This document shows positions 1,202 through 61,844 of a DNA stretch of 64,000 bases, one piece after another. The position numbers and the translations under genes were made by a program. The number at the start of each line of letters is the position of its first letter. The first letter of the stretch is position 1. The notes beneath the pieces were generated by a model. That model made no database searches. It saw only the letters and a list, made by a program, of their open reading frames with translations, and was not told the DNA's origin. Source of the DNA: a virus; the IMG/VR virus record IMGVR_UViG_3300038441_001119, positions 1 to 64,000 of that record; one strand, given 5' to 3'.

Positions 1202-1272
1202 TGGCAAGGGAGGGTGGAGTCGAACCACCAACCGAAAGTTTCCCAACTGCTTTACTGTTAAGCTACTCCCCT
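1202..1272 (-). tRNA. tRNA-like gene with degenerate anticodon arm
   Basis: The minus strand has acceptor AGGGGAG/CTCCCTT, D arm GCTT-AACAGTA-AAGC, canonical T arm GGTGG-TTCGACT-CCACC, discriminator G and encoded CCA. The middle is 3-4 bases too short, and no 7-base anticodon loop with T33 can be drawn. The only good pairing there is AGTT-GGGA-AACT, a GNRA-type tetraloop. The gene is either a broken tRNA or a tRNA-shaped RNA that does not decode. Confidence 0.5.
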
Positions 1273-4720: not shown

Positions 4721-7700
4721 TTAGAATTTACCAGTCTGATTGATCTTTTCACCAAATCCGACACCGTATCCAAGTCTCGGAGCAAAGTGCTGGTTCTCAG
4801 CGAAGTTGGTCTCAGCCCCACGAACAGCACTGTCTGCCAGCTGTTGCGACAGATACGATGTACTCATGCTTGCAAGCCAGTCCTCGTTGGCATGTGAAGC
4901 AGTACGAAGCCTGTCCATACGTGCAGTGAACGGTGGTTTCTCCTCAGTAGCCTTGAAGTTGGTCACACCATTGTTCTTCAGGTCCTTCAGCATACTCTTG
5001 GTGATCCTTGTACCACTGGTGTGATGCAACACATCGCCTGCAAGATACCCTGAAGGGATTGCGTTGTCCGTGCTGACATCAATGATGCTCTTGGGTTTCC
5101 AAGCTCTTGAAGCCTTGTTGTAACTGATGCTGTCATCAGGCAGGTTATCAAGATCTTCCATCTCTTCATCCAGATTGACAGTGCTCAACGCTCCCTTGGC
5201 AAAGATCTCCAGATTTTTTTTATCTGCTGATAGTCCTGAATCCGCATAGATCTCCTTCAAGCGGTCAACATAGTATCTGCGTGCTTCACCAAGGCCCTTG
5301 TAGTTGACCACATCACGCACATCAACGATACCTTCGCTCAGTGCATCGCCTGCTTCCACTTCATCGCCCTGTTTGACAAGCACTGGATAGCCCTGAGGCA
5401 CATACAGCTCCTTCTCATTGACTTTGACGAAGTGTCCACCTTGCGGGGCTTCACGAACCTCTGTAACAATGCCATCTTCCTCAGCGACAGTGCTCTTGTG
5501 CTGGTACTCACTCGGGGACTGCACAAACTGAGACAGGATCTCGAAGCCACCATAGGTACGCTTCGCCTTACCTTGACCTGCAGTATGCTTCGCACTGTTA
5601 CTGACTATCATTCCATTAGCCAGCACGAACAAGTGATCAGGATTAGCCACCTCGATGTCCCAGCATTGCTTGTACATTGGAATGGTTGCACGCACAGCCT
5701 GAGTAAGACCATACATAGTGACAATCTTACTTGGGAATCCCTGTCCATCATTTCTGAGAGTCCTTGTGATGCGCTCACCAAGCTCAACTTGTTTGCCATC
5801 ATTGTAGACAATCTTCTCATTGAGGAACTTGTGGTTCGCAGTGCACTCCACAGAGAAACTCTTTCCATTCACATTGGCAAAGTCCCATGTTTGTACAGGC
5901 TGTTCCCCCTGATTGAACTTATCGGTAACCTCAACAGGTCCCGTTCTGCCCAACTTGTCTGAACCAAGCACAATGTCACCAATACGGATCTTCTCAATGG
6001 CTTTCTCACTGCCATCCCACATACGCACCATGGTTCCCTCCGCCAAGCAAAGAGCACCTTGGGTCACAGGCTCACTGTTGTGTGTGATGAGCAGTCCCTC
6101 TGTAACAAACAGATGTGATTCGTTGTCCACAGTAATGTCCCATGTAGGAAGATTGCCAGCAGGATTAACTTGCTTCAGAAACGCAATGTCACGAAGACTA
6201 CGAATGGCCTTCAGCTTACGCAGCATCTCATCCAATGCGAACTTCTTCACTCCAAGCATGTATGGCAACAGATATGATCCCAGTCTGAAGATACCATTGG
6301 TATTGCGAGTGCGGATATCCCATTCCTTCACACCTTTCCTGTTGTACTCAGTTTTGAACACACCCGGAATAAGCAGTCGGTTCTTGATGAGCCTGAACAC
6401 GTCGTCTGCAAGCTGTTCGCTGCTGTTGGTGAATTTGATCACCTCTCCCTCTTTACCAATGTAGCCATCAGTTACAATCAAGCCTGCAAGGAATGCACAC
6501 ACAGAAGAATGGTCCCAACGAGAGAACACTTCATCAGGGATATGTTTGTCCTTGCATCTGCTTCCCCACAGACCAAGCTCCGTAGCACGTGTCTTGAGGA
6601 AGTTCTTGTACACTCGTGCATTGGCCCCATTGTTGAGTATGGTGAATGTGCCTTGCTGTGCTTCCAATGCCTTGGGACCGCTCAGTTGCATTCCTTTCTC
6701 TTGGAGATAGTCATTCAACTGGCGAACAAGAATGGGATCATAGCAGGAGAACGTCGCTGAACCACCTGCATCAAACGTACCATCGCCCAGCATTGCTCCA
6801 AGGATGAATGCAAGGTTCTCATGTATGCTGTCTTGTGGTTCCCAATGAGTGGAAGCAACGGTGAGGCCCTTACGGAAACGTGCTCCTTGTTTGTTGATAG
6901 GGACATCCTTCAGTGTGGACTCTTCACTTGTGACCAGCTTGTTGCGGCAGTCGTAAACACTTGCGTGCCACCTGTGATTCTCTGTCGCGACTACCGTCGT
7001 CTCTTTTTCCTGCGAATAAGTCGTAAACACATATTTGTTGCACGATTGGTTGCCTCTATCGTGCACAGCAGTCACCTTCGTCGGGGAGAACGTATTGTTA
7101 TGGTTATATCCCACCACAGTATCCCCAACCTTGATCTCCTCAATGTTCTTCCAAGTACTATCACCCATCAGCACCTTTGTACCCTCTGCAAGACACAAGG
7201 CGTTGGCAGCAGTAATACCCACATGCTCCCCTATCTTGGGAAACCTATGCTCGAACGTCATACCCACACACTTGCTGCACAGACCATCAGCCTTACAACT
7301 CAACGGTGATCTGGCTATGACCTTCTCCACTCCTTGTTTCTTGAGAGCTGCCAATGCCTGTCTGTCCAGCAGAGTACCAGCCTTCATACCACCAGTATCC
7401 CTAGCAAGCACTCTATTACGTACAGTACTGTCATCCACCTCATAGGAGATACCATTGTTTGTATGGCAGTCCTTGTCAGTGATCACAAGGTTGGCTGCAG
7501 TCTGTGAAGCAAGCTTACCGAAGTCACCACCTTTGGCAGTTGCAACCTTGGTGGAGATAACGGATGAACGTGCACCATATGTACCAGCCATGTACTCATA
7601 GGGTCTCAGTCCTTCTGCAAATGAGTTCCTGATGAATACTGGGATAGTCTTACCATTGGCATCCTGATACACACCGGGAGTGGATAGCATAGCCTGTACC

Positions 7701-8137
7701 TGTACTGGCTTACCCCGTGATCCCGATGATACTGCCATACCCAGATTGTTGAACTGGGCTTTGGCTGCACTCATGGTGTCTTTGATGAGAAGATCATTGT
7801 ACTTGTACCAGATGGCTTCCCGCTGTCTGTTGAACTCATCTGGATCATTACGGAAGGTTTTCTTTGCTTCCTTGATCTCAGCATCCATTGCCTTGAAGAT
7901 TACTCCCTTGTCTATGACTGGTACGAGATCCTTCAGTCCGATGGATTCACCTTGTTTGTATGATGCTTCCCTGCCCACTGTTGCGATCTTGTGGGAGATG
8001 TCCTTGTACTTGTCCGGATGTTTCTGGTACAGGGTGACAAGCATATTGTTGATGGACTTGTCATCAAACCCTGTGAGTGAGTCTTTCACATCATCAGGGA
8101 GGAGGGAGCGGATAAGTAATTCTACAGCCTTGGCCAT
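4721..8137 (-). CDS. RNA polymerase beta' subunit, C-terminal part, with two inteins
   Basis: 1138 residues from ATG 8135-8137; a longer frame from GTG 8197 would begin inside the terminator of the previous gene. The host part matches bacterial beta' downstream of the active-site barrel: zinc-finger-like CKADGLCSKC, then GITAANAL, SEPVTQGAL and SAKHTAG, equivalent to [24 protein letters not shown] at the trigger loop, with the key His kept. Two inteins (residues 315-687 and 697-847) interrupt this stretch, leaving about 614 residues after splicing. The barrel with the DxDGD motif is encoded separately at 60624-61844. No classic Shine-Dalgarno is visible. Presumably part of a phage polymerase transcribing phage genes. 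Confidence 0.88.
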   Translation of the reverse strand: MAKAVELLIRSLLPDDVKDSLTGFDDKSINNMLVTLYQKHPDKYKDISHKIATVGREASYKQGESIGLKDLVPVIDKGVIFKAMDAEIKEAKKTFRNDPDEFNRQREAIWYKYNDLLIKDTMSAAKAQFNNLGMAVSSGSRGKPVQVQAMLSTPGVYQDANGKTIPVFIRNSFAEGLRPYEYMAGTYGARSSVISTKVATAKGGDFGKLASQTAANLVITDKDCHTNNGISYEVDDSTVRNRVLARDTGGMKAGTLLDRQALAALKKQGVEKVIARSPLSCKADGLCSKCVGMTFEHRFPKIGEHVGITAANALCLAEGTKVLMGDSTWKNIEEIKVGDTVVGYNHNNTFSPTKVTAVHDRGNQSCNKYVFTTYSQEKETTVVATENHRWHASVYDCRNKLVTSEESTLKDVPINKQGARFRKGLTVASTHWEPQDSIHENLAFILGAMLGDGTFDAGGSATFSCYDPILVRQLNDYLQEKGMQLSGPKALEAQQGTFTILNNGANARVYKNFLKTRATELGLWGSRCKDKHIPDEVFSRWDHSSVCAFLAGLIVTDGYIGKEGEVIKFTNSSEQLADDVFRLIKNRLLIPGVFKTEYNRKGVKEWDIRTRNTNGIFRLGSYLLPYMLGVKKFALDEMLRKLKAIRSLRDIAFLKQVNPAGNLPTWDITVDNESHLFVTEGLLITHNSEPVTQGALCLAEGTMVRMWDGSEKAIEKIRIGDIVLGSDKLGRTGPVEVTDKFNQGEQPVQTWDFANVNGKSFSVECTANHKFLNEKIVYNDGKQVELGERITRTLRNDGQGFPSKIVTMYGLTQAVRATIPMYKQCWDIEVANPDHLFVLANGMIVSNSAKHTAGQGKAKRTYGGFEILSQFVQSPSEYQHKSTVAEEDGIVTEVREAPQGGHFVKVNEKELYVPQGYPVLVKQGDEVEAGDALSEGIVDVRDVVNYKGLGEARRYYVDRLKEIYADSGLSADKKNLEIFAKGALSTVNLDEEMEDLDNLPDDSISYNKASRAWKPKSIIDVSTDNAIPSGYLAGDVLHHTSGTRITKSMLKDLKNNGVTNFKATEEKPPFTARMDRLRTASHANEDWLASMSTSYLSQQLADSAVRGAETNFAENQHFAPRLGYGVGFGEKINQTGKF
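5597..6049 (-). other. Intein 2 (mini-intein, 151 residues)
   Basis: Begins with Cys (CLAEGTMVRMW, block A), contains a block-B-like TANHKF, and ends with IVSN before Ser. There is no homing-endonuclease domain. Its insertion point is only nine extein residues (SEPVTQGAL) from intein 1. Block A is very similar to that of intein 1 (both CLAEGT), suggesting common ancestry. Confidence 0.88.
6077..7195 (-). other. Intein 1 with LAGLIDADG endonuclease (373 residues)
   Basis: Starts with Cys after GITAANAL (CLAEGTKVLMG) and ends THN before Ser, as required for protein splicing. Block B-like TENHRW is present. The central part has two LAGLIDADG-type motifs, LGAMLGDGTF and LAGLIVTDGYI, so it probably encodes a homing nuclease that targets intein-free copies of this polymerase site. 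Confidence 0.9.
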
Positions 8138-8175
8138 AGAGGTAGGATAAGGGAAGAGAGGGGGATTTGATAGAT

Positions 8176-8216
8176 AAAAAAGAGGAATGCCCTCCACAGG
8201 GGTTAGCTGTGGAGGG
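8176..8216 (-). terminator. Intrinsic terminator upstream of RNAP gene
   Basis: Stem CCCTCCACAG/CTGTGGAGGG on the minus strand followed by a TCTTTTTT tract. It closes the 22-kb block of small genes and isolates the polymerase gene. Confidence 0.85.
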
Positions 8217-27508: not shown

Positions 27509-28399
27509 TTACATATTGTCTGCGGTCAGCAGGTTGGTGAACTCATCCGAAAGGGCCAAGATGCTCGACCATTTCTCGAATTCATTACCGGCACCGGTTG
27601 CAAGTTCCTGCAGCTGTGACACTGGAATGAACTTGGGATCGTGCATGCTGTTTTCGAACTCAAGGTTGTCGATGTTCTTCAGATTGACCGTGAACACCAG
27701 TCCGAGATGGACTTTGGACACGGAGGACTCCGAATCGCACAACAACCCTTCGTACTCGATGAGATCGATGTCCTTGGGCAGGATACCAAGCTCTTCTTTC
27801 AGCTCACGCAGAAGCGCAATCATCTTCCAGTTGTCGGGCATGTTGTGTGCGCCGAACTGCTGAACACCGATACCGAAATCAGTGTCATTGATGTGCCCTC
27901 CGACGCCGACAGCATACTTTCCGACGAGCCTGCCTTCGCCGCTCTTCTTGGAACGCTGGTAAACGAGCACCCGATCTTGGAAGCGCACCACCGCGTAGTT
28001 GATGAGCTGCCTGTACATCGGGTCCAGTTCGGCTTGGAAACGCGGAATGAACGTCAGTTCGGACTCCGAGATGGAATCAGATCCAACAGACATAAATCCA
28101 TCTTGGCTAGGCTCCTGTTTGGTAACCAAGACCCGTTCACCGTTGTAGTGGTCATCCGGATCCGTTTTGACCTGTTCCACGATAATGATGGTTTCCTTCA
28201 GAACCGTGTGCGGGATATGGATGGTGGCACCAGACTGGCTTTCCACTTCCACCAAGATACGCTTTGAGCTTGCGGACAAAGCCTCTTCGATGGCTGACTG
28301 TACAATAGCGATGCCTGCCTTGGTAAGCGCAGGAGTCACTACGATAGGACCCAGTGGTCCGGGGCGCTTGATGATGAGAGTATACAATACTTCAGTCAT
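27509..28399 (-). CDS. Nudix hydrolase (COG4112-like)
   Basis: 296 residues from ATG 28397-28399, 17 bases past the upstream stop. The C-terminal half has the series YQRSKKSGEGRLVGKYAVG, VGGHIN and RELKEELGI, i.e. a Nudix box with an insertion between GGHIN and REL, like the predicted MutT-type phosphoesterases. The N-terminal 130 residues are an extra alpha/beta domain. Nudix enzymes cleave nucleoside diphosphate-X bonds, so an NDP-sugar, dinucleotide or ADP-ribose substrate is plausible next to the NAD-related operon, but the substrate is not predictable. Confidence 0.75.
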   Translation of the reverse strand: MTEVLYTLIIKRPGPLGPIVVTPALTKAGIAIVQSAIEEALSASSKRILVEVESQSGATIHIPHTVLKETIIIVEQVKTDPDDHYNGERVLVTKQEPSQDGFMSVGSDSISESELTFIPRFQAELDPMYRQLINYAVVRFQDRVLVYQRSKKSGEGRLVGKYAVGVGGHINDTDFGIGVQQFGAHNMPDNWKMIALLRELKEELGILPKDIDLIEYEGLLCDSESSVSKVHLGLVFTVNLKNIDNLEFENSMHDPKFIPVSQLQELATGAGNEFEKWSSILALSDEFTNLLTADNM

Positions 28400-28416
28400 A
28401 GATAAAGCGGCTGAGG

Positions 28417-28977
28417 TTAGTTGCGCTCGTGATAAGGAGTATTGAATCCTCCCGGAGACTTCTTCTTGATCTCCTCCACTAGTTCTGGATTCCACACAGG
28501 AATGCCGTCACCAGCGACTTGGAGGATGTTAATCTCCATGCGATCAGGCACCTGTCCTGTCTTCGGAATGCGTCCTTCGGGCTGGAAACAAACGTGCTGA
28601 CACCCCGACATCAAGAAGGCAGTGCGGATGGCAACGCCCTTGATACCGCTGTGAACATCGGTCACAACATTACCGAGGAAGTCACGTGGATCGACGCTAC
28701 CTTCCGGCAGGTCAACAAATTCAGCTCCGTCGAGACGCTCAGGAACCACCCAGAATCCTTTGACCGGATGAAGGGTTTCCTTGTCGATTTCGCGTGGTTG
28801 GAAGTGGTACTCCACGTTCCCGCCTAGTGCGAAGATCATGAAGTCCAAATGCCCGTGCTGTCCGGTAACTTTGTCAAACACTCTGGTGTTGAGTTTCAGC
28901 ATCTTCAGCAGAGTACGCTCCGCTTTGTCAGGTGTTCCGGGAGCTGGTGCCGGTGTTTTGGCTGCTTTGTCTTTCAT
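28417..28977 (-). CDS. Protein with two tandem copies of a phage beta domain
   Basis: 186 residues. Two halves have the same order: VFDKVTGQHGHLDFMIFALGG...FQPR and VTDVHSGIKGVAIRTAFLMSG...FQPEG. Single copies of this 'V-D-x-x-T-G-x-x-G-x-A' domain occur in many phages as proteins of unknown function. A Lys/Pro-rich head precedes them. Leader contains AATAACCAAC and AAACCAAACCACC. Confidence 0.65.
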   Translation of the reverse strand: MKDKAAKTPAPAPGTPDKAERTLLKMLKLNTRVFDKVTGQHGHLDFMIFALGGNVEYHFQPREIDKETLHPVKGFWVVPERLDGAEFVDLPEGSVDPRDFLGNVVTDVHSGIKGVAIRTAFLMSGCQHVCFQPEGRIPKTGQVPDRMEINILQVAGDGIPVWNPELVEEIKKKSPGGFNTPYHERN

Positions 28978-30176: not shown

Positions 30177-30251
30177 TGGTAGGCCCGGCTGGATTCGAAC
30201 CAGCGACTCAAGGATTATGAGTCCTTTACTCTACCGCTGAGTTACAAGCCC
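30177..30251 (-). tRNA. tRNA-Met(CAT)
   Basis: Minus-strand cloverleaf with acceptor GGGCTTG/CGGGCCT (G-T wobbles), anticodon arm AAGGA-CTCATAA-TCCTT, T arm GCTGG-TTCGAAT-CCAGC, discriminator A and encoded CCA. G1 makes it elongator-type; a tRNA-Ile read after lysidine modification of CAT cannot be excluded. Confidence 0.88.
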
Positions 30252-30293: not shown

Positions 30294-30659
30294 ATGAAGA
30301 AATGCTTAGTATGTGGTACTTACGTACCTGAAACTTACAAAAAGTTCTGCTCTAAAAAATGCAAGGTACGTCATAACAGTTCTTATCCTGCGCAGCAGGC
30401 TAGAGGACTGGAACGAAAAACCACTTTAGTAAAACAGAAAGGTGGATGTTGCGAGCACTGCGGTTACCGTAAGAATTTATCTGCGCTACAGTTCCATCAC
30501 ATAGATCCAACCGCTAAGCTAGGACAAGTCGACATGCGCAGCCTTAGCAACCATTCTTGGGAATGGTGTGTTAGGGAAGTTGCGAAATGCCAGCTACTAT
30601 GCGCAAACTGCCATTCGGAACTGCATAATCCTCATCTAGACATCACATCTCTTAGTTGA
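30294..30659 (+). CDS. HNH endonuclease, probable homing type
   Basis: 121 residues. N-terminal zinc finger (CLVCGTYV...CSKKC) followed by an HNH core: CEHCGYRKNLSALQFHHIDP, then CQLLCANCHSELHN. Both Cys pairs and the HH...N...H residues are present. One of few plus-strand genes, it runs divergently from tRNA-Met and its end overlaps the convergent gene at 30652 by 8 bases, as expected of an inserted mobile gene. Confidence 0.88.
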   Translation: MKKCLVCGTYVPETYKKFCSKKCKVRHNSSYPAQQARGLERKTTLVKQKGGCCEHCGYRKNLSALQFHHIDPTAKLGQVDMRSLSNHSWEWCVREVAKCQLLCANCHSELHNPHLDITSLS

Positions 30660-32430: not shown

Positions 32431-34311
32431 TTAGTTGGCGTTGTACTGTCCGTCGACAGGTTCCAGCGGCCAGAGACCCTGCAGGGTAGGATGCTGGTTC
32501 CGAGCGTCGAGCGATGCCTTGACATAGTCAGTGTACGGTTGACCACGACGGGCAACGCGTTGTTCTTCGAGCCGCTTGCGGACATCGTCGAGCGTACACG
32601 TATTGTATTGCTTGCTGTCCTTGAAGATGAGCTGGTAAGCGCAGTTCTCCAATTCTTGCATCGTGGCCTTGTCCTTGAGGTAGGGGACGCCGTCCTTCGA
32701 GAAGAACACAGCGGGGATACCTTCAGCCGACTTCTTGGTACCGTCATCGGTAGCAGGGTTCTTCGACAGAGCGATGGGCTTGTCACCAAAGATACCGAAC
32801 GTCGCTTTGACAGCCATGGCGTGTGTGTCACGGGTGACGAACTGATAGCTGTAGCTTCCGATACCGAAGACGATATTCGTCGAGCAGAAGCCGAGAGCCT
32901 TCATCTGCTCAAGGATCGACTGGCAACGCTGAAGCGTGATCGAGTCACCGTAGATCAGACCAACGAATGGATTGATCTCCCGGTAGCCCTTCGCATTGAC
33001 CTTTCCGCCGAACTCATCCCAGAGACACTCCAGCGATCCGCGAAGGACCGGGGTGTCGACGACAGGAACCAGCTCGTAGTAGTCGTGCTGCGAGTTGGCC
33101 TTGATCTCGTAAGGCTGCCCCTTGTGCCGGACATGGAAGTAGCCGAGAACACGGATCTTCTCCAGAGCGAGTTTGAGGATTTCGTCTTCGATGCGAGTAC
33201 CGACGGCGATTTCCTCAACGTCATAGATCGCCTTGAGAGGATAGGCTTCGCCGCAGACGATCTTGATTGGATCTCCACTGTCAGGGCGGAACACCACCTT
33301 GGCAGGCTGTCCGTTTTGATTGGGCTTCCGGTCGAGGATGATGGGCTTGAGACGCTTGAGACCTTCCGTCATCACCTTCCAGTAGTTGTTGGTGTCCGAG
33401 ACAGCCGACACGATACCGGTAGGGTACTTCTTCGAGAAGAGGTTCTCCATGAAGCGCATCTCACCTTCCCACTTGTCAGTACCGCCGCCGTAGACAGCGA
33501 TACCAGCTTGGGTAACCGAGTGTTCCGTGGCCCGCACCGAGGTACCAATAAGGCTTTCAGTCGGGTAGTAGTTCCGAGTGAATGGGACCGCAGGCATGGT
33601 GTCCGTACCGCAGAAGCTGGTAAGGTGCGACATGCCGGTAAGACACGAGGCTTCCAGACCCTGCATACCTCGCATCGAGAAGTCGTGACCTTGGAATGGA
33701 ACAAAACCCATGTCGCCGCCGGTGTCCTCGCAGAAGCGATCCATCAGTGTACGATACAGATGCGCCGTGGTTGCAGCCGTGACACAGGGCCACATGTTCT
33801 GCGACAACGAGGTCTCCTGATGGTTGACAAGCCAGAAGAAGCGGCTGTCGGTGTTGTAGATCACCATCATCGGAACACGAAGCGGAGTGAGTGTACCTTC
33901 GGGAAGCGCCCAGATAGCCAGAGGCAGATAGCCGAGATCGTGCAGTTCACGTACGTGGTTGTCTCCGACAACACCGGGACCATAGAAGGCGTCGATGTTC
34001 TTGCGGTACAACAGTACGGCGATCTCCTTGTCGCACGAGAAGAAGGCTTCATCCCAGACACCGAGTAGCTGGTACTGGACCCAATACTGGCTACCGAAAG
34101 CAACCACCTCGGTAAGACCGGGATGGCGGGTTGCGCGAGCAGTCAGGTTGGCCATGATCAACTGCGTGTTGTCAGGGTGCTGTGGAAGGTGGTCACCTTT
34201 GTAGGCATCACATCCGGTCATGGGGTCTTGCCACGGGCGGTAGACCTTGTTGTTTGGAGTACGGCGAGCCTTCGGTTTGTCGGCTGCGATCTCTTTGGCG
34301 ATGTTTGTCAT
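32431..34311 (-). CDS. Nicotinamide phosphoribosyltransferase family (NadV/Nampt or Namat)
   Basis: 626 residues, longer than the roughly 490 of human Nampt. Conserved landmarks are HDFSMRGMQGLEA, FCGTDT (Asp237), ATEHS (His264, the phosphorylated His in Nampt), VSAVSDT, FRPDSGDP and IYGDSI. About 70 extra residues lie between RPDSG and the YGDSI loop. Nampt joins nicotinamide to PRPP, giving NMN; the related phage enzyme Namat uses ADP-ribose pyrophosphate and gives NAD+ directly. The PRPP-synthetase homologue upstream in the same operon makes either reading possible. Leader GTAACCAACAT. Confidence 0.88.
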   Translation of the reverse strand: MTNIAKEIAADKPKARRTPNNKVYRPWQDPMTGCDAYKGDHLPQHPDNTQLIMANLTARATRHPGLTEVVAFGSQYWVQYQLLGVWDEAFFSCDKEIAVLLYRKNIDAFYGPGVVGDNHVRELHDLGYLPLAIWALPEGTLTPLRVPMMVIYNTDSRFFWLVNHQETSLSQNMWPCVTAATTAHLYRTLMDRFCEDTGGDMGFVPFQGHDFSMRGMQGLEASCLTGMSHLTSFCGTDTMPAVPFTRNYYPTESLIGTSVRATEHSVTQAGIAVYGGGTDKWEGEMRFMENLFSKKYPTGIVSAVSDTNNYWKVMTEGLKRLKPIILDRKPNQNGQPAKVVFRPDSGDPIKIVCGEAYPLKAIYDVEEIAVGTRIEDEILKLALEKIRVLGYFHVRHKGQPYEIKANSQHDYYELVPVVDTPVLRGSLECLWDEFGGKVNAKGYREINPFVGLIYGDSITLQRCQSILEQMKALGFCSTNIVFGIGSYSYQFVTRDTHAMAVKATFGIFGDKPIALSKNPATDDGTKKSAEGIPAVFFSKDGVPYLKDKATMQELENCAYQLIFKDSKQYNTCTLDDVRKRLEEQRVARRGQPYTDYVKASLDARNQHPTLQGLWPLEPVDGQYNAN

Positions 34312-34368
34312 ATGTTGGTTACGATGGGAATGGAGCAGGTTCTCAGCCTGCCATATTTGCTGTAAAAA

Positions 34369-35298
34369 TTATACCGGTGCAGGTGCTTCAATAGCCACTG
34401 TAGATGGTGTCGAGAACATGGCTGCGGTTGCCTTTTCGACGGCCTCCAGTACGTCAATCGCACCATTGGTCTGAAGCTGACTGCTGAGGATACCAATCTC
34501 CAGAGAGCGGGTATTCTTATGGACGTTCTTCTGCATATTGCGAAGCTCACGTTGTTCCATTGCAACCTTTTCCAGCTCGATGGACAGTTCCAGAACGCGA
34601 AGGACGGTTTCACCTAAGGCACCATCCAGAGAGAACTCCAGATCAACCGAGGTATAGTTGTATTCATCGTCGCGATAAAATCCTGGAGAATCCCTATACT
34701 CTTTGCTGACACGGTGTGCCAGTGCGATATTTGTACCGATGGTTACCTTCAACACTCCCTCTTTGAGGATCTGTTCCCACACGGATGGTCGGGCAACGTA
34801 AGTGTTACCCGAAAGGTAATTGTGTGTCAGATTGGACACACCGCCACTGGTGCGTCCTGTTATCAGATCATCCAGAGGATGTGAGGTCTCGGTGACCTTC
34901 GGAAAACGGAAAGACAGGTTCATACTGTCGATGAACTTGTCAGCTTCAGCTTTCTTCTGCTCAGGTGTGACTTTGTCGTCAGATTTGAAGACCAGAACCT
35001 GCATTGCCCAGAACACGAGGTTCTTCAGTCCGTCGTGACTTGCCACGATATGTTTCGGGTCCAACAATGGATGCTTGAGGAAGCCGTCGGTGTAAGCGAT
35101 CTTGAGTGCTTCGGCAATCTCGTCATAACGCTTGAGCAAAGCGTTATTTCTATTATCTATTTCTTCTTCAGATTTCAGTTTGACGAGCTGAAGGGCAGCT
35201 TCAACGCGTGCTTGGTCGACTGCTACCGAGTCGCGGGTCTGGGTTGGCACTCCAACAACTTCTACTGTGGTTTCTGCTCGGTCGATATTATCGGACAT
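34369..35298 (-). CDS. Unknown 309-residue protein in NAD operon
   Basis: Helical, acidic protein with LVKLKSEEEIDNRNNALLKR and a C-terminal coiled coil (about 235-285). No enzyme motif. The start (GAAACCAA leader) overlaps the end of the metallophosphoesterase gene by 37 bases, so it is translated from the same transcript. Confidence 0.6.
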   Translation of the reverse strand: MSDNIDRAETTVEVVGVPTQTRDSVAVDQARVEAALQLVKLKSEEEIDNRNNALLKRYDEIAEALKIAYTDGFLKHPLLDPKHIVASHDGLKNLVFWAMQVLVFKSDDKVTPEQKKAEADKFIDSMNLSFRFPKVTETSHPLDDLITGRTSGGVSNLTHNYLSGNTYVARPSVWEQILKEGVLKVTIGTNIALAHRVSKEYRDSPGFYRDDEYNYTSVDLEFSLDGALGETVLRVLELSIELEKVAMEQRELRNMQKNVHKNTRSLEIGILSSQLQTNGAIDVLEAVEKATAAMFSTPSTVAIEAPAPV

Positions 35299-36089
35299 TT
35301 GGTTTCTTCTTTGGGGATGTATTGGGTCAGGTCAACCAGAAGTTCACGATTGAACTCTGGGTTGAGATGGTCAGGAACATAACCGTGTGGGTTTGAGATC
35401 ACACGGGTATTGTTTATTTTGTAATCATTGCTTGCATGAATATGCCCATGTATCCACAAGGGGATAGCATATTTTGCAGTAATAGCTGATAGGTCGGAGG
35501 CATACGCCGCACGAAGGGGGTCTTCCATTTCCGCAGGAGGTACTGAGAAAATGGATGGAGCATGATGCGTAACGACGATGGTTCTCTTTGGGTCGTGCTC
35601 TTCCAAGAACTGCTCCAGCAAGAACCGACTCCTTATGTGGGTGGAGCGCGTATCAGCAGCTGAAAGCTTACGGTATTTATCTCCTCTGTTATAAGTGATC
35701 TTTACGTAGTCATTCATCTGATATGCTGCGATACCCATGTCCGCCCACCAGTCATTGTGGAGATTGAAGTCAGCCCACAGCGTGCAGCCGTAGAAATACC
35801 AACCGTCAATCTCCACAAAACTGTCTTCCAAGAAGTGTATGTTACTCTTGGGATTCTGATTCTTAAGCTCTGCAACGAGATTAGGGAACTTCTCTCCATA
35901 GTACTCGTGGTTACCGCAGACATATATAACAGGGATACCTTCCGCAAACTCCCGCAGCCATTTGAAGCCAAGGGTGCCTTTGTCGATATCACCTGCTGCA
36001 ATGAACACATCTGCGTATTCCGAATGTATGGGAGTAGTAGGTCCTTCACCGAATTCACGGTGCAGGTCGCTGAAGATCTGAAGTTTCAT
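35262..36089 (-). CDS. Calcineurin-type metallophosphoesterase
   Basis: 275 residues from ATG 36087-36089 (MKLQIFSDLHREFG). All metal-binding motifs are present: SDLH, AAGDID, CGNHEYY, VVTHHAPS and HGHIHAS. It hydrolyses phosphoester bonds; the substrate could be a cyclic nucleotide, a nucleotide, or a 1''/2' phosphate. Inside an operon with NAD-salvage homologues it might process ADP-ribose derivatives, which is speculation. Confidence 0.85.
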   Translation of the reverse strand: MKLQIFSDLHREFGEGPTTPIHSEYADVFIAAGDIDKGTLGFKWLREFAEGIPVIYVCGNHEYYGEKFPNLVAELKNQNPKSNIHFLEDSFVEIDGWYFYGCTLWADFNLHNDWWADMGIAAYQMNDYVKITYNRGDKYRKLSAADTRSTHIRSRFLLEQFLEEHDPKRTIVVTHHAPSIFSVPPAEMEDPLRAAYASDLSAITAKYAIPLWIHGHIHASNDYKINNTRVISNPHGYVPDHLNPEFNRELLVDLTQYIPKEETKCPIISTEQKPQ

Positions 36090-36103
36090 AAGGGGTGCTG
36101 TTT

Positions 36104-37075
36104 TCACTTATAGTACCCGTACACTGGTATACGAGTAAGATAGGGGTATGACAGGTTTCCTTCTTGCAGGAAGTAAGGAGCTGCCATGCTATCAGTGGAA
36201 ATACACCTGTCAATACCAGCTGCCAACATTTCAGCCTGATTCATCGTTCCTTCGTTGTGGGAAGTGACGAGGACGATCTCCCGAGCGCCGATGACTTTCA
36301 GGGCAGCTGCGATACCTTTGAAGGTTCCTCCCTTAGAGCAGATGTCGTCGATGATAAGGAACTTACCATCACTCAGCACCGAAGACACGGAAGCTTGCAG
36401 GGATGCCGTGTCGAGCTTGGTCTTGCTGTGGTCGATCACACCAGTAGACGGGTCGCGATCCTTGTACGCCGTAACAATAGGACCTTTGAATTCCAGATTT
36501 CTGGCCAGCGTGAAGATCTTCTTGGCAGCTCCTGCATCAGGCGCAACCCAGACATACTTGTGATATGCCAGCCCTCCATAGGGAGGAAGCGAAGCCATGG
36601 ACAGTACGTTCTCCTGTGTGTATTCCTGCACTCCATTGATGAGGAGTTTCGACACATTGCTGTGCAGATCAAGAACCTCCACTCTATCGAAATTGAGGGA
36701 GTTCAGTATTTTGGAATATGTCAGAATGCCGCAACCTTCTCCCGGCGTCATCTGTCTGTCCGAGCGGGTGCAGGGCACGTACGGCAGACGCAGTGTGAGG
36801 TATTGTTCCGGTTCGCAGGTCCAGCGGATGGCATCTCTGAGAAGGGCCAGCTCGTACAACCGCGAGGCCGCATTGTCTTGGAAAAGAACAATGAGGTTCT
36901 TTACGATGGCACCGTTTGGCTTCAAGATACGGAGACCTGCTTCTCCTGTAGGATAGGTGATGAATTCCAAACCAAGCTTGTGTTGCAGCTCGTTCGGTTG
37001 ACTGTCGATCCTCGTGCGTGCATCGAGGTACCATGTGTATGGATCGTTTTCTCTGAAATCAAACTGTTGAAACAT
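36104..37075 (-). CDS. PRPP-synthetase family protein (Prs or Adps type)
   Basis: 323 residues. Family signatures: PYVPCTRSDRQMTPGE (catalytic loop), LDLHSNVSKLL (metal/PPi region), WVAPDAGAAKK and IIDDICSKGGTF (sugar-phosphate loop, usually DDxxDTGGT). The loop has S-K in place of D-T, which may alter the sugar substrate. Prs pyrophosphorylates ribose-5-phosphate using ATP; the phage homologue Adps instead acts on ADP-ribose. Overlaps the upstream gene by 17 bases and heads towards the Nampt-like gene. Confidence 0.85.
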   Translation of the reverse strand: MFQQFDFRENDPYTWYLDARTRIDSQPNELQHKLGLEFITYPTGEAGLRILKPNGAIVKNLIVLFQDNAASRLYELALLRDAIRWTCEPEQYLTLRLPYVPCTRSDRQMTPGEGCGILTYSKILNSLNFDRVEVLDLHSNVSKLLINGVQEYTQENVLSMASLPPYGGLAYHKYVWVAPDAGAAKKIFTLARNLEFKGPIVTAYKDRDPSTGVIDHSKTKLDTASLQASVSSVLSDGKFLIIDDICSKGGTFKGIAAALKVIGAREIVLVTSHNEGTMNQAEMLAAGIDRCISTDSMAAPYFLQEGNLSYPYLTRIPVYGYYK

Positions 37076-38289: not shown

Positions 38290-39780
38290 TTACTTTCTCT
38301 TACTAGGAGAAGTGAACGTAGATGCCGATTTGACGATATGGTCAGCGAAATAGCGGGCAGAGGCTTTCTTAGTATTCTCTCTAAGATCGTCGAGTGCTTG
38401 CTTCAGTTTTTCACTGCCGGTTTTGGGTTCAAAATTGATCACTGCAAATCCCAAGCCAAGAGGATCTTCTTTCTTTTCTTTGACTGGAGTGGCAATAGGC
38501 GCTTCCATGACCACGCGACCAAAGATGGTCTCCTGTGCAAGGGCTTGGATGTGTGACTGGTTGCAGAGCTTGTTCTTGTCAGGGAATCTCGCTTCGTACA
38601 GACCAGAACGGTCATCTGTCCACTCAGCGGAATCGAGGAAGTTGTTGAACACCTGCTTTCCTTGCTCCCATGGTACGCCCGTCAGGGTAACCCTGTGATC
38701 AACACGACCCGGTCTAAGCAGGGCCTTATCGAACTTCTCGGGATGGTTGCTAGTTAAAATGAAGACACACTTTTCTGGAGTTGTCGCTCCATCGAAAAAG
38801 TTCAGTAGCTGTGACAACTGGATGGCGTCATTATTGGGATTGCCGCTGCGATCAGTAGAAGCACCTTGGACGTCGAAATCCTCGATCAGTACAACGGACC
38901 CACCACGAGTTGGGATCAGCGACAGATAGTCTCCGAAATCGGTTGCCTTGGCACCAGACAGGTCCAGCTGAACCAGACGTTTGCGGAACTCGGTGGCGAT
39001 CGCCTTTGCAAGAGAGGTCTTGCCTGTGCCGGGTTCGCCGTCAAGAAGCAGGACGTACTTGAATGGTACGCCCAGCTTCTTGTAGGCATCTTCAGACTGT
39101 GAGAACTTACGGAGCGACTCCATGATCTCCTCAAGCTGTCCGCCCATGAGGACAATCGACGACAGAGGACGACCCGGTTTGAACTCGTAAGAAGAGGTAA
39201 CGCCTTTGCTGCTATTGAAGATGCGGCGAATCTCAATATCCGGTACCGTCTGCGTTTTGCTGATTTCGTGTTTCTTTGGTTCCGCCAAGGTAACAGTGCG
39301 GTGGATCTCCGCCATCTGTTTTCTGGTTTTGAAGGGGAACCATATTTGCAGCTCTCTGTGAGGTAGACCAATCATACCCGGTACGATCCTGTAGCGAACC
39401 ACGACACGGTGATTGCCTTTCAGCTTGCACAAATGGAAATGGTCCGTGGCAAGATCGTACACATGGTGTCCGGTGTGCTTGATTCCTTCGAACATCTCAC
39501 TTCTGTCCTGACGAACGAGGAACCCTTTATTGTCTTTGTTGACTTCCTCCTTCCATGCTTTGAACGCCTCGGTATCGAGTCGGTTGTGTGAAAAGATATG
39601 CGTACGCAGGTGGGGCTTGGTGACACTGATGAGATCACGGAAGTAGTAGTCAGCTGGCGTCTTATCCGCCTCGTCGGTCGGATAAGAATCGTACATAATC
39701 ATCGATGGTACGAACCAACGGACATACATAGCGGACAGGACGAGTAGACCTAACAGAGATAGCAGAATAGTGGAAATCAT
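38290..39780 (-). CDS. BCS1-like AAA+ ATPase, membrane-anchored
   Basis: 496 residues from ATG 39778-39780, chosen because it directly follows the upstream stop and opens with a membrane span (MISTILLSLLGLLVLSAMYV). Then a BCS1-specific-like domain (about 60-200) and an AAA domain: Walker A GEPGTGKTS (about 248-256), Walker B VVLIEDFD (about 296-303), LSQLLNFFDG, and TSNHPEKFDKALLRPGRVD with the arginine finger. BCS1 proteins move folded substrates across membranes in mitochondria; bacterial and viral relatives have unknown clients. Confidence 0.8.
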   Translation of the reverse strand: MISTILLSLLGLLVLSAMYVRWFVPSMIMYDSYPTDEADKTPADYYFRDLISVTKPHLRTHIFSHNRLDTEAFKAWKEEVNKDNKGFLVRQDRSEMFEGIKHTGHHVYDLATDHFHLCKLKGNHRVVVRYRIVPGMIGLPHRELQIWFPFKTRKQMAEIHRTVTLAEPKKHEISKTQTVPDIEIRRIFNSSKGVTSSYEFKPGRPLSSIVLMGGQLEEIMESLRKFSQSEDAYKKLGVPFKYVLLLDGEPGTGKTSLAKAIATEFRKRLVQLDLSGAKATDFGDYLSLIPTRGGSVVLIEDFDVQGASTDRSGNPNNDAIQLSQLLNFFDGATTPEKCVFILTSNHPEKFDKALLRPGRVDHRVTLTGVPWEQGKQVFNNFLDSAEWTDDRSGLYEARFPDKNKLCNQSHIQALAQETIFGRVVMEAPIATPVKEKKEDPLGLGFAVINFEPKTGSEKLKQALDDLRENTKKASARYFADHIVKSASTFTSPSKRK

Positions 39781-39784
39781 GTAA

Positions 39785-40333
39785 TTAACGGGAGTAGATG
39801 CACTGGATGATGGACTTGTCTTGGGAGACAGTACGAATGTTTCTGAACCTGTGTTCGAAGTTAGGGAAACGTTCGTCGTAGAAAGATGGATTGGAACCAA
39901 CAGGTTCGCTGTCCAACAGGAAGGTAACATGCAGTTCGTCAATCTTGCGCTCCGTGATGAACGAAGCCCAATGTTTGGGACCCACATGTAGATAGACATC
40001 CGTTTCCGTCGCGAAGCATTCCTCTACGGAGGACACCACGTGAGCGAAGGACATCGGACTTTCAGGAGGGAAGGACTCCTTAACATGCCGGGAGAGTACC
40101 CTGACGTTCCAACTTCCACTCTTGGCTGCCATTTCCTCAGCCGAGGTGAAGTTGAAACGTTTGACGATCTCCTCAAAAGTAAGGCGCCCCAGCAGGAGTG
40201 TTGATCCCTTTGGGGCGCCTTCTGGTAAGAAGAAGTGGTATTTCCCTGCAACGTCACGAGGTACCCTTTGTTGTCCGAGTGTCATACGGACACCCATGAT
40301 AACTTTCGGTTTAGTCGGGGCTTTGGGAGGCAT
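39785..40333 (-). CDS. DHFR/RibD-C-like fold protein
   Basis: 182 residues. KYHFFLPEGAPKGSTLLLGRLTFEEI mirrors the 'PWxLPxDxxxF...VMGRxTxExI' part of dihydrofolate reductases, and VYLHVGPKHWASFITERKID followed by ELHVTFL mirrors their C-terminal half. The usual GG pair of the NADPH site is VG-P here, so activity is uncertain. ATP-binding motifs are absent. Four bases separate it from the AAA ATPase gene. Confidence 0.5.
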   Translation of the reverse strand: MPPKAPTKPKVIMGVRMTLGQQRVPRDVAGKYHFFLPEGAPKGSTLLLGRLTFEEIVKRFNFTSAEEMAAKSGSWNVRVLSRHVKESFPPESPMSFAHVVSSVEECFATETDVYLHVGPKHWASFITERKIDELHVTFLLDSEPVGSNPSFYDERFPNFEHRFRNIRTVSQDKSIIQCIYSR

Positions 40334-46777: not shown

Positions 46778-48148
46778 TTATACCTGACCGGGTTCGGATC
46801 TCCAGCTCAAATTAGGAAGCAGGTGTTTCCACGTTTCGTAAATGGATTTATTCTTGTGGTAGGAGTTAGGAAGCAATATCGCCTTACGTCCTGCTACGAG
46901 GGCGGAGATAGCGAAGTGCAGACAGTCTGTTTCCACCTCCCTATACCTAGCTGCACTCCTGACGTAATCCATAGCAGTCTTCATTCCGAGCCGGGGATCA
47001 TTCTTAGGGTGCGACGGAAAGAAGGATTCTATATCGTCACGTAAGAAGACGCCCTTTTCATTAGGAGGGTCAGGGAACTTCAGAAGTGGGATGGAGAACG
47101 CGAAGTCCGGGACAATACGTGTGTCTTTGTGTTTGGACATATCAAACGAGGTCTGCTCCCGTACAAACAGAATGTCCGCCAGATCCAGATGCGGGCGGTA
47201 CTCTTCGATAGTCTGCGGAAACACGATCACCTTCTTGCCTAGCGGTTTGACAGCCTTAGCCAGTCCAACAAGGATATGATCATGGTTCCAACTTCCTGAG
47301 ACACCTCCACCTCCCCCGTATGCATAAATGTCAGCTTGAGGGAGGTTCGTAGATGTCTTGGAATCATAGATACCGTGTTCAATCCCATTACGTTTGAACA
47401 GGGAAACCATACCTTCAACTATAAGGTCATCCCCTACATTACCGGGAGGTTTGATTACTACGACCGACTTACCTCTGAGTTCTTTCAGTAGAGGTTCGAA
47501 GTTACTATCTGGGACCAGTACATCGTCAGCGTTCAAGGAACGGGGCGGCATGTACTCGCCGGTTCGGTCGGAGAAGCCCTCCACCGTTGAGAAGTACATC
47601 TTGGGTAGGCGCAGGATTCTTGTACCTACATCTTTGCACGCGAGAGCAATAAGCTGCTCGTAGCATACTGCTTTAGCTTTGAGGGGTTTGGTGGCTGCGT
47701 TCTCGTAGGCAGCTAACAGCCATCCATTACTCTTAAGTAGGGGAGCATCATACAACACCGCTTGAGTTCCATGATATGGAAGAAAGACTTCATAGAACCC
47801 GGTACCCGTGGAAACCGAGTACAGCACTTCAGCACCCAGCAAGAAGATACCTTCGCCTTCAGGAGCTTCAAAAGTCAGTGTCTTAAGTTCCTCCACGTTC
47901 TGCGGTAGAGCATCATCCTCCAAAACAAGGACCATTCCTTTGGCTTCTTTAACTGCCTTGAGGTGGCTTAGCGAACACCCACGAATAGCACGAGCTGTCC
48001 TGTCCATTTCCCAGTCTGGGGTAATGGCATTCATAATCCGTGATTTGGGAAAGATCTTTCGAACCTCTGCAATAGCTGGCTCGCGGTCTACTCGTGTAGG
48101 AGAGTGGATGATTACGACTTCGCACTCCTGTAAAGAAATAAGGCTCAT
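46778..48148 (-). CDS. Fusion of GT25 glycosyltransferase and polysaccharide pyruvyltransferase
   Basis: 456 residues. The N-terminal half (to about 205) has GCSLSHLKAVKEAKG followed by MVLVLEDDALP, the signature of family-25 glycosyltransferases that extend lipooligosaccharides. The C-terminal half (about 215-456) has GNVGDDLIVEGMVSLFKRNG, ADIYAYGGGGGVSG, VFPQTIEEY and IVPDFAFSIP, typical of polysaccharide pyruvyltransferases (PssM/CsaB type). The start codon is inside the hairpin at 48140-48181. It lies between tail genes, so it may modify virion proteins or host glycans. Confidence 0.78.
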   Translation of the reverse strand: MSLISLQECEVVIIHSPTRVDREPAIAEVRKIFPKSRIMNAITPDWEMDRTARAIRGCSLSHLKAVKEAKGMVLVLEDDALPQNVEELKTLTFEAPEGEGIFLLGAEVLYSVSTGTGFYEVFLPYHGTQAVLYDAPLLKSNGWLLAAYENAATKPLKAKAVCYEQLIALACKDVGTRILRLPKMYFSTVEGFSDRTGEYMPPRSLNADDVLVPDSNFEPLLKELRGKSVVVIKPPGNVGDDLIVEGMVSLFKRNGIEHGIYDSKTSTNLPQADIYAYGGGGGVSGSWNHDHILVGLAKAVKPLGKKVIVFPQTIEEYRPHLDLADILFVREQTSFDMSKHKDTRIVPDFAFSIPLLKFPDPPNEKGVFLRDDIESFFPSHPKNDPRLGMKTAMDYVRSAARYREVETDCLHFAISALVAGRKAILLPNSYHKNKSIYETWKHLLPNLSWRSEPGQV

Positions 48149-60623: not shown

Positions 60624-61844
60624 TTATACCGGATTATTGCCTATTTGAGGACCTTGTACTGGAGCAGGGACTGGCATACCTCCCATAGGAGCAGGAGGCA
60701 TCATAGGAGGAGGTCCGATCTCAACGTTATCCGACAGTCTTACCTTCTTGTCTCTGATGGCTTGCATAGCTGTAGCCTCGTCAGGGAAGTAGTGGGTCTC
60801 CTTGGCAGGACGTTGGTGCGCGGAGTACAGCCCAAGGATCTGCTCGTGCTTCAGTGCGGGAACAATCTTGTCAGCTTCCTTGATGGAGTAAACCATCTTG
60901 GAAGGCATAAGGATGTCCTTGGCCTCATCCACAGACTCCTTCATGGAAGGAACGTGGATGTTCAGAGTATCACCGTCGTGGTCAAGGTTAAGGCCAGTGG
61001 ACACATATGGATTGGTAGCAACGTTGTCTCCGTCGATTAGTTTTGGCCATCCTGCAAGGACGTTGTACTTGTGCCACGCTGGAGCGCGAGAGTAGATAAC
61101 AGGACGCTCAGTTACTTCCCGGTCCAGTGCTTTCTTGGCGAAGTCCGTACGCTTGGAAACGTGCTCAAGGGCAGACAGGGAACTCATACCTGACTGCACA
61201 AGGCGGCGTTGGATATATGGGCCGTACACCTTCCATGCCATGTCAATAGGGATACCGATCTGATCCATGTCGAGATCTGGATTAGCGGTAGCAACGCCAC
61301 GTCCGACAGAGTCCATTGTCTTGGAGAATAGACGGCGATGAAATATAGAGTGCTTGGGACCAGCTCCTTTTCCAATGAGATGGTCCAGGAAGCCGCTGAC
61401 ACCGCGTTGTTTTGTCTTAGGGTTGACGGCCTCGCCATACCCATAAACAGCTTTAGCAGCGTTGTAGAGTTGGTATGCAGCATCTTTGGAGCCTTCTTCT
61501 CCAACCTCACCCTTGAGATCATTGTAGACTCCCTTGTAGTTGATCAGGTCCTTGTACAGCTCGTTTGCGTCACCGGGCATGAAGGTGTCGCCTGTGATGG
61601 AGAACGGTCTGAAGACAGGGGGAATGACTGGTACCTTGGAGATGGTCAGGTCAGCAGGCGCAATCTCATTCTTGCGCAAACCCGCAATGACGTTGAGGAT
61701 CTTGACGGCAGGTCCGCGCTTGGTCTTCTTGCCTGTAGCCAGATCATCCCTAGCTTGTTTCTCCAGAGCGTCAATGTCGACTTCCTGCAATGCCTTGTAG
61801 ATGGCCATTGGTCCGGTTCCATAACGTCTTTCTTCCTGCTGCAT
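60624..61844 (-). CDS. RNA polymerase beta' subunit, active-site part
   Basis: 406 residues. VPVIPPVFRPF (cf. VLPPDLRPM), RPVIYSRAPAWHKYNVLAGW (cf. RPPVLLNRAPTLHRLGIQAF) and LNLDHDGDTLNIHVP (cf. FNADFDGDQMAVHVP) match the double-psi barrel of bacterial beta'. Asp288, Asp290 and Asp292 are the Mg-binding residues. The protein ends soon after, with a Pro/Met-rich tail, so the rest of beta' is encoded elsewhere (4721-8137). The clamp and zinc domain normally before this part are absent. Confidence 0.9.
   Translation of the reverse strand: MQQEERRYGTGPMAIYKALQEVDIDALEKQARDDLATGKKTKRGPAVKILNVIAGLRKNEIAPADLTISKVPVIPPVFRPFSITGDTFMPGDANELYKDLINYKGVYNDLKGEVGEEGSKDAAYQLYNAAKAVYGYGEAVNPKTKQRGVSGFLDHLIGKGAGPKHSIFHRRLFSKTMDSVGRGVATANPDLDMDQIGIPIDMAWKVYGPYIQRRLVQSGMSSLSALEHVSKRTDFAKKALDREVTERPVIYSRAPAWHKYNVLAGWPKLIDGDNVATNPYVSTGLNLDHDGDTLNIHVPSMKESVDEAKDILMPSKMVYSIKEADKIVPALKHEQILGLYSAHQRPAKETHYFPDEATAMQAIRDKKVRLSDNVEIGPPPMMPPAPMGGMPVPAPVQGPQIGNNPV

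Follow-up and report, generated by a model that had tools for sequence, protein, structure and literature searches.

Gene content and organization of the locus

The window analysed here, a stretch of 64,000 nucleotides, corresponds to bases 1–64000 of a 212,352-base (212 kb) jumbo phage record for which megablast against the phage collection recovered no close phage relatives. Four co-directional genes occupy positions 37075–32431 on the minus strand and follow one another in the order Adps-like, metallophosphoesterase, orphan ORF and Namat-like:

36104–37075, minus strand: predicted Adps-like ADP-ribose pyrophosphokinase of the Prs family, 323 aa, with sugar loop DDICSKGGTF, HS of VLDLHS, APDAGAAKK and K205/R207
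35262–36107, minus strand: calcineurin-like metallophosphoesterase (phrog_1649; GTG start)
34369–35298, minus strand: orphan ORF of 309 aa, with no relatives in homology searches
32431–34311, minus strand: predicted Namat-like nicotinamide ADP-ribose transferase, 626 aa, with the clamp, catalytic H264 and the NAM pocket F211/R214/D237/R342/D35/Y37

Family profiles confirm the Nampt-family and Prs-family genes that an earlier note on this DNA had recognized, and both ORFs are intact. The Prs-family ORF matches PF00156 (E 1.1e-7) and phrog_619 (E 9e-55), while the Nampt-family ORF matches PF04095 (E 7.6e-29), phrog_448 (E 1.6e-155) and NF006629 (425.8 bits, cut-off 405). The Adps-like stop and the metallophosphoesterase start overlap by 4 nt, the orphan ORF overlaps the metallophosphoesterase by 37 nt, and a 57-nt gap separates the orphan ORF from the Namat-like gene. 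This tight co-directional spacing is the sole basis for describing the genes as one operon; the flanking genes are co-directional too, and a promoter scan of the locus returned no excess of promoter-like matches over chance and fewer than in shuffles. The same note placed a metallophosphoesterase between the pair, which is correct, but two genes intervene, the orphan ORF having gone unmentioned.

A place for the metallophosphoesterase in the system is not borne out by the comparison of related loci. Among 160 loci fetched with the Namat profile (80 bacterial and 80 viral), a phmmer search detected no metallophosphoesterase-like ORF beyond one weak match (E 4e-4), and an ORF with the metallophosphoesterase motif set occurs in only 2. 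Homologues are present in 180 phage records (phrog_1649) and, in four other phages, lie beside tRNA clusters, a DNA ligase or a PII gene. Across these loci it is not a recurrent NARP1 component. Against the PDB, the metallophosphoesterase profile gives weak metallophosphoesterase matches only, and homology searches with the orphan ORF found no family and no relatives. Both genes are probably passengers. Inserted genes can nevertheless be functional, as illustrated by mycobacteriophage DyoEdafos, whose NARP1 locus contains RyDEP, a RyR-domain cADPR glycosidase (PMC13232231), and a functional role for the phosphoesterase is conceivable by this analogy. A search of the 212-kb record for a RyR domain gave no match, and its control likewise gave none. 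That the phosphoesterase and the orphan ORF act as RyDEP-like accessories in a four-gene NAD+ rescue module would appear quite improbable; if true, the phosphoesterase might open cyclic ADP-ribose or another nucleotide immune signal, with the resulting ADPR feeding Adps.

Several further features of the window deserve mention in their own right. An AAA ATPase (38290–39999, minus strand) has weak matches to IetA of PADLOC, and a NUDIX-domain protein (27509–28495, minus strand; phrog_8902) is the sole PF00293 match in the 212-kb record. An HNH-like ORF (30294–30659, plus strand) sits beside tRNA-Met (30177–30251) in an otherwise minus-strand neighbourhood, and a fifth tRNA (1205–1272, minus strand) was found by Rfam and missed by ARAGORN. 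A polysaccharide pyruvyl transferase domain (46778–48148, minus strand; PF04230, E 9.4e-18) adjoins large ORFs with weak tail/head-fibre matches. The C-terminal part of the phage RNA polymerase β′ (4721–8197, minus strand) apparently carries two inteins, with just the nine residues SEPVTQGAL of extein between them. The first (intein 1; aa 335–707, nt 7195–6077) has LAGLIDADG_3, and the second would be a mini-intein (aa 717–867, nt 6049–5597). Both lie within the conserved GEHVGITAA...SEPVTQ segment, which resembles the bacterial β′ VGVIAAQSIGEPGTQ region. The N-terminal part of β′ is encoded by a separate gene far away (60624–61844, minus strand), with 35–39% identical relatives in IMG/VR phages.

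The Namat-like protein and its adenine clamp

The solved sequences closest to the window Namat are SPbetaL1 Namat (9W5W/9W5X, 372 bits) and HdNadV (9KE8, 359 bits), with human Nampt reaching only about 147 bits. An AF2 model of the protein, built with nine window/IMG-VR sequences, has a mean pLDDT of 75.7 and finds Namat as its best structural match (TM 0.93 by target). When its residues are mapped onto the SPbetaL1 Namat–NAD+ structure, both the NAM/NMN contacts and the adenine-clamp positions are kept. Specifically, the NAM/NMN contacts correspond to identical or equivalent residues in a core comprising D35, Y37, F211, S212, R214, D237, A261, R342, D344, G455, D456, G485, S486 and R494, together with the catalytic H264.

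Namats are defined by a selectivity clamp that combines a loop residue (R40 in SPbetaL1) with the helix motif GSX-phi-X-phi-X-phi-TRD, and in SPbetaL1 Namat the aromatics F392 and Y396 engage the adenine (PMC12774641). The stacking residue of the clamp loop was taken as Arg, Lys or Tyr, and the helix aromatics as those at motif positions 3 and 7. Mapped from the SPbetaL1 structure, the adenine clamp of the window Namat is complete, consisting of R62, Y487, F491, T493 and D495; its helix reads GSYSYQFVTRD, with aromatics Y487 and F491, and fits the published signature, while R62 aligns with SPbetaL1 R40 in a loop whose alignment is less certain than that of the helix. The five canonical NadV control sequences instead carry a GGxLLQxxxRD-type motif and a short ESRGG loop and lack the clamp aromatics, and this active-site entrance is not present in the window Namat. 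HdNadV, the NMN-complexed NadV of Haemophilus ducreyi, falls in the Namat-type clade, yet it has GAQTYQRNTRD and no clamp residues, so a position in this clade would not be enough to decide which substrate is used. At the level of sequence, it is the clamp residues that discriminate Namat from HdNadV within the clade, and the window Namat has them.

The window protein is also unusually long, and the earlier figures of about 130 additional residues overall and about 70 extra ones between RPDSG and YGDSI are about right relative to phage NadV and SPbetaL1 Namat. Total lengths are 626 aa in the window, 473–477 aa in phage NadV and 491 aa in SPbetaL1 Namat; the RPDSG–YGDSI stretch measures 112, 41 (canonical phage NadV) and 53 residues, respectively. 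Elsewhere, the RPDSG–YGD stretch spans 130 residues in wV8, 150 in LP-125 and 54 in the sister protein from Chitinibacter, with a median of 62 and a range of 52–134 across 155 loci. The Felix-O1-type Namats carry an even longer insert than the window Namat; wV8 and mistaenkt (Ounavirinae) are presumed here to stand in for the group of Bas63. The suggestion that the insert accommodates a larger substrate does not hold: the insert varies across Namats and is absent from both the Chitinibacter protein and the verified SPbetaL1 Namat, so it does not track ADPR-PP use and is ruled out as a specificity device.

The Adps-like protein, phylogeny and gene linkage

The AF2 model of the Adps-like protein has PRPP synthetases as its best PDB matches. 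Its sugar loop, DDICSKGGTF, lies at aa 243–252. A loop altered from the R5P type had been proposed, and the difference from DTGGT stands; within Adps, however, the loop is not odd, since TF ends it in 141 of 142 Adps neighbours. The commonest forms there are DDICDGGRTF and DDICDGGGTF, one neighbour has DDLCSKGGTF, and the verified SPbetaL1 Adps has DDLSSFGGTF, whereas 15 of 16 canonical Prs loops read DT-x-x-T-L/I. The signature DD[IL]xxxxxTF, derived in this analysis and not published, describes the window Adps.

Phylogenetic analysis places the Namat-like protein, and less firmly the Adps-like protein, with the NARP1-type families. In trees of 31 and 40 sequences, the split between the Namat-type and canonical NadV clades receives 100/100 support, with the window protein on the Namat side, and when bacterial sequences are included, its sister group consists of proteins from Shewanella xiamenensis and Chitinibacter (100/99). 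The Adps side is likewise separated from 16 canonical Prs at 100/100 in both trees, with the window protein on the Adps side and, in the second tree, sister to the Shewanella/Chitinibacter lineages plus Undibacterium (82/93). AU tests that moved the window Adps to the base of canonical Prs gave p values of 0.41 and 0.125; this placement is not formally rejected because the branch is long. The trees against known Adps/Namat and Prs/NadV that the earlier note had called for are therefore firm for Namat and statistically looser for Adps. Grouping with chromosomal NARP1-type pairs is well supported in these sequence trees for Namat and less firmly so for Adps, and the shared nearest relatives suggest that the two window genes travelled together. 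The Shewanella pair lies downstream of an NrtR-type regulator (PF21906, E 1.3e-20), whose best NCBIfam name is "ADPR responsive transcriptional repressor", with a score below the cut-off.

The window Adps has diverged strongly, with identities no higher than 31% and an end branch of 2–3, and has SHNEG where THGIFSKG is common. This substitution and the long branches of both proteins could indicate a pair with a shifted donor, such as another sugar pyrophosphate, or with decaying or lost activity. Such a change seems highly improbable, given that the ORFs are intact, that every catalytic and clamp position is kept, and that the Shewanella sister Adps has a similar SHYED within an ordinary Adps–Namat arrangement.

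An Adps gene is present within the fetched flank in 142 of the 160 related loci, several of the remainder being contig ends, and in the phage collection 1,375 records match the window Prs/Adps and 1,913 match the window Namat/Nampt; NARP1-like pairs are therefore common. A search of distant RNAP-related phages, run without a positive control, did not find the pair.

Probable NAD+ reconstitution and comparison with known systems

In other phages, Adps and Namat rebuild NAD+ that the bacterium destroys in self-defence. Within this family, Adps converts ADPR and ATP to ADPR-PP, and Namat joins ADPR-PP with NAM to give NAD+ (PMC12774641). Because of the clamp and catalytic residues, the trees and the gene linkage, the NARP1-type reading offered earlier is supported, and in this jumbo phage the pair very probably forms a NARP1 system for NAD+ reconstitution. 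In the first step, the Adps-like enzyme would pyrophosphorylate ADP-ribose to ADPR-PP at the expense of ATP, and the Namat-like enzyme would then combine nicotinamide with ADPR-PP to form NAD+ directly. The pair would in this way reverse the cleavage of NAD+ by host effectors of the TIR/SIR2/SEFIR type. We infer the ADPR-PP substrate, the pathway flux and the anti-defence role of the window pair from residues, trees and linkage.

Ordinary nicotinamide salvage, in which the Prs-family enzyme would supply PRPP, the Nampt-family enzyme would form NMN and host Nmnat would finish NAD+, is the principal alternative. In vitro, SPbetaL1 Namat can still form NMN when given PRPP (PMC12774641), which makes a similar side activity likely in the window Namat, and the crystal structure of HdNadV, a member of the same clade, contains NMN; the AU results, in addition, leave the Adps placement statistically unlocked. 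Against this, the window Namat has the full adenine clamp that HdNadV and canonical NadV lack, and an Adps-type loop replaces the R5P loop. Moreover, no Nmnat-fold gene (PF01467) was found in the 212-kb record, which is possibly a fragment, and the control was found in 14 of 14 genomes; this result fits the two-step route. The PRPP plus NMN route that the earlier note had kept in reserve is thus weakened by clamp and loop, and salvage as the main function appears unlikely. For the preferred NARP1 reading, a practical annotation rule follows: although databases name such proteins nicotinate phosphoribosyltransferase and PRPP synthetase, NARP1 can be told apart from ordinary salvage, and even from its clade member HdNadV, by the clamp residues together with the TF sugar loop.

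Compared with NARP1 of Bacillus phage SPbetaL1 (9W5W/9W5X), the window locus has both families, the Adps-then-Namat order, the clamp signature, the catalytic residues and an SxGGTF-type Adps loop. It differs in two genes inserted between the pair and in a Namat of 37% identity that is longer by about 59 residues in the RPDSG–YGDSI stretch and has N- and C-terminal extensions. DyoEdafos NARP1 (PMC13232231) likewise has an extra gene within the locus, RyDEP there as opposed to a calcineurin-like phosphoesterase and an orphan in the window. Canonical phage NadV (+NatV), for example that of Vibrio phage VCPH (NARP2-type), shares the superfamily and the catalytic core but has no adenine clamp, a short loop, no Adps neighbour and an NMN adenylyltransferase partner. 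The chromosomal pairs of Shewanella xiamenensis and Chitinibacter, the nearest tree relatives of both window proteins, have adjacent Adps and Namat genes, a Namat without the insert and no phosphoesterase in between, with the NrtR-type regulator upstream in Shewanella. The grouping of this jumbo-phage pair with NARP1-type pairs on bacterial chromosomes fits capture from bacteria. The window pair is best read as a strongly diverged example of the already described NARP1 rather than a new kind of system.
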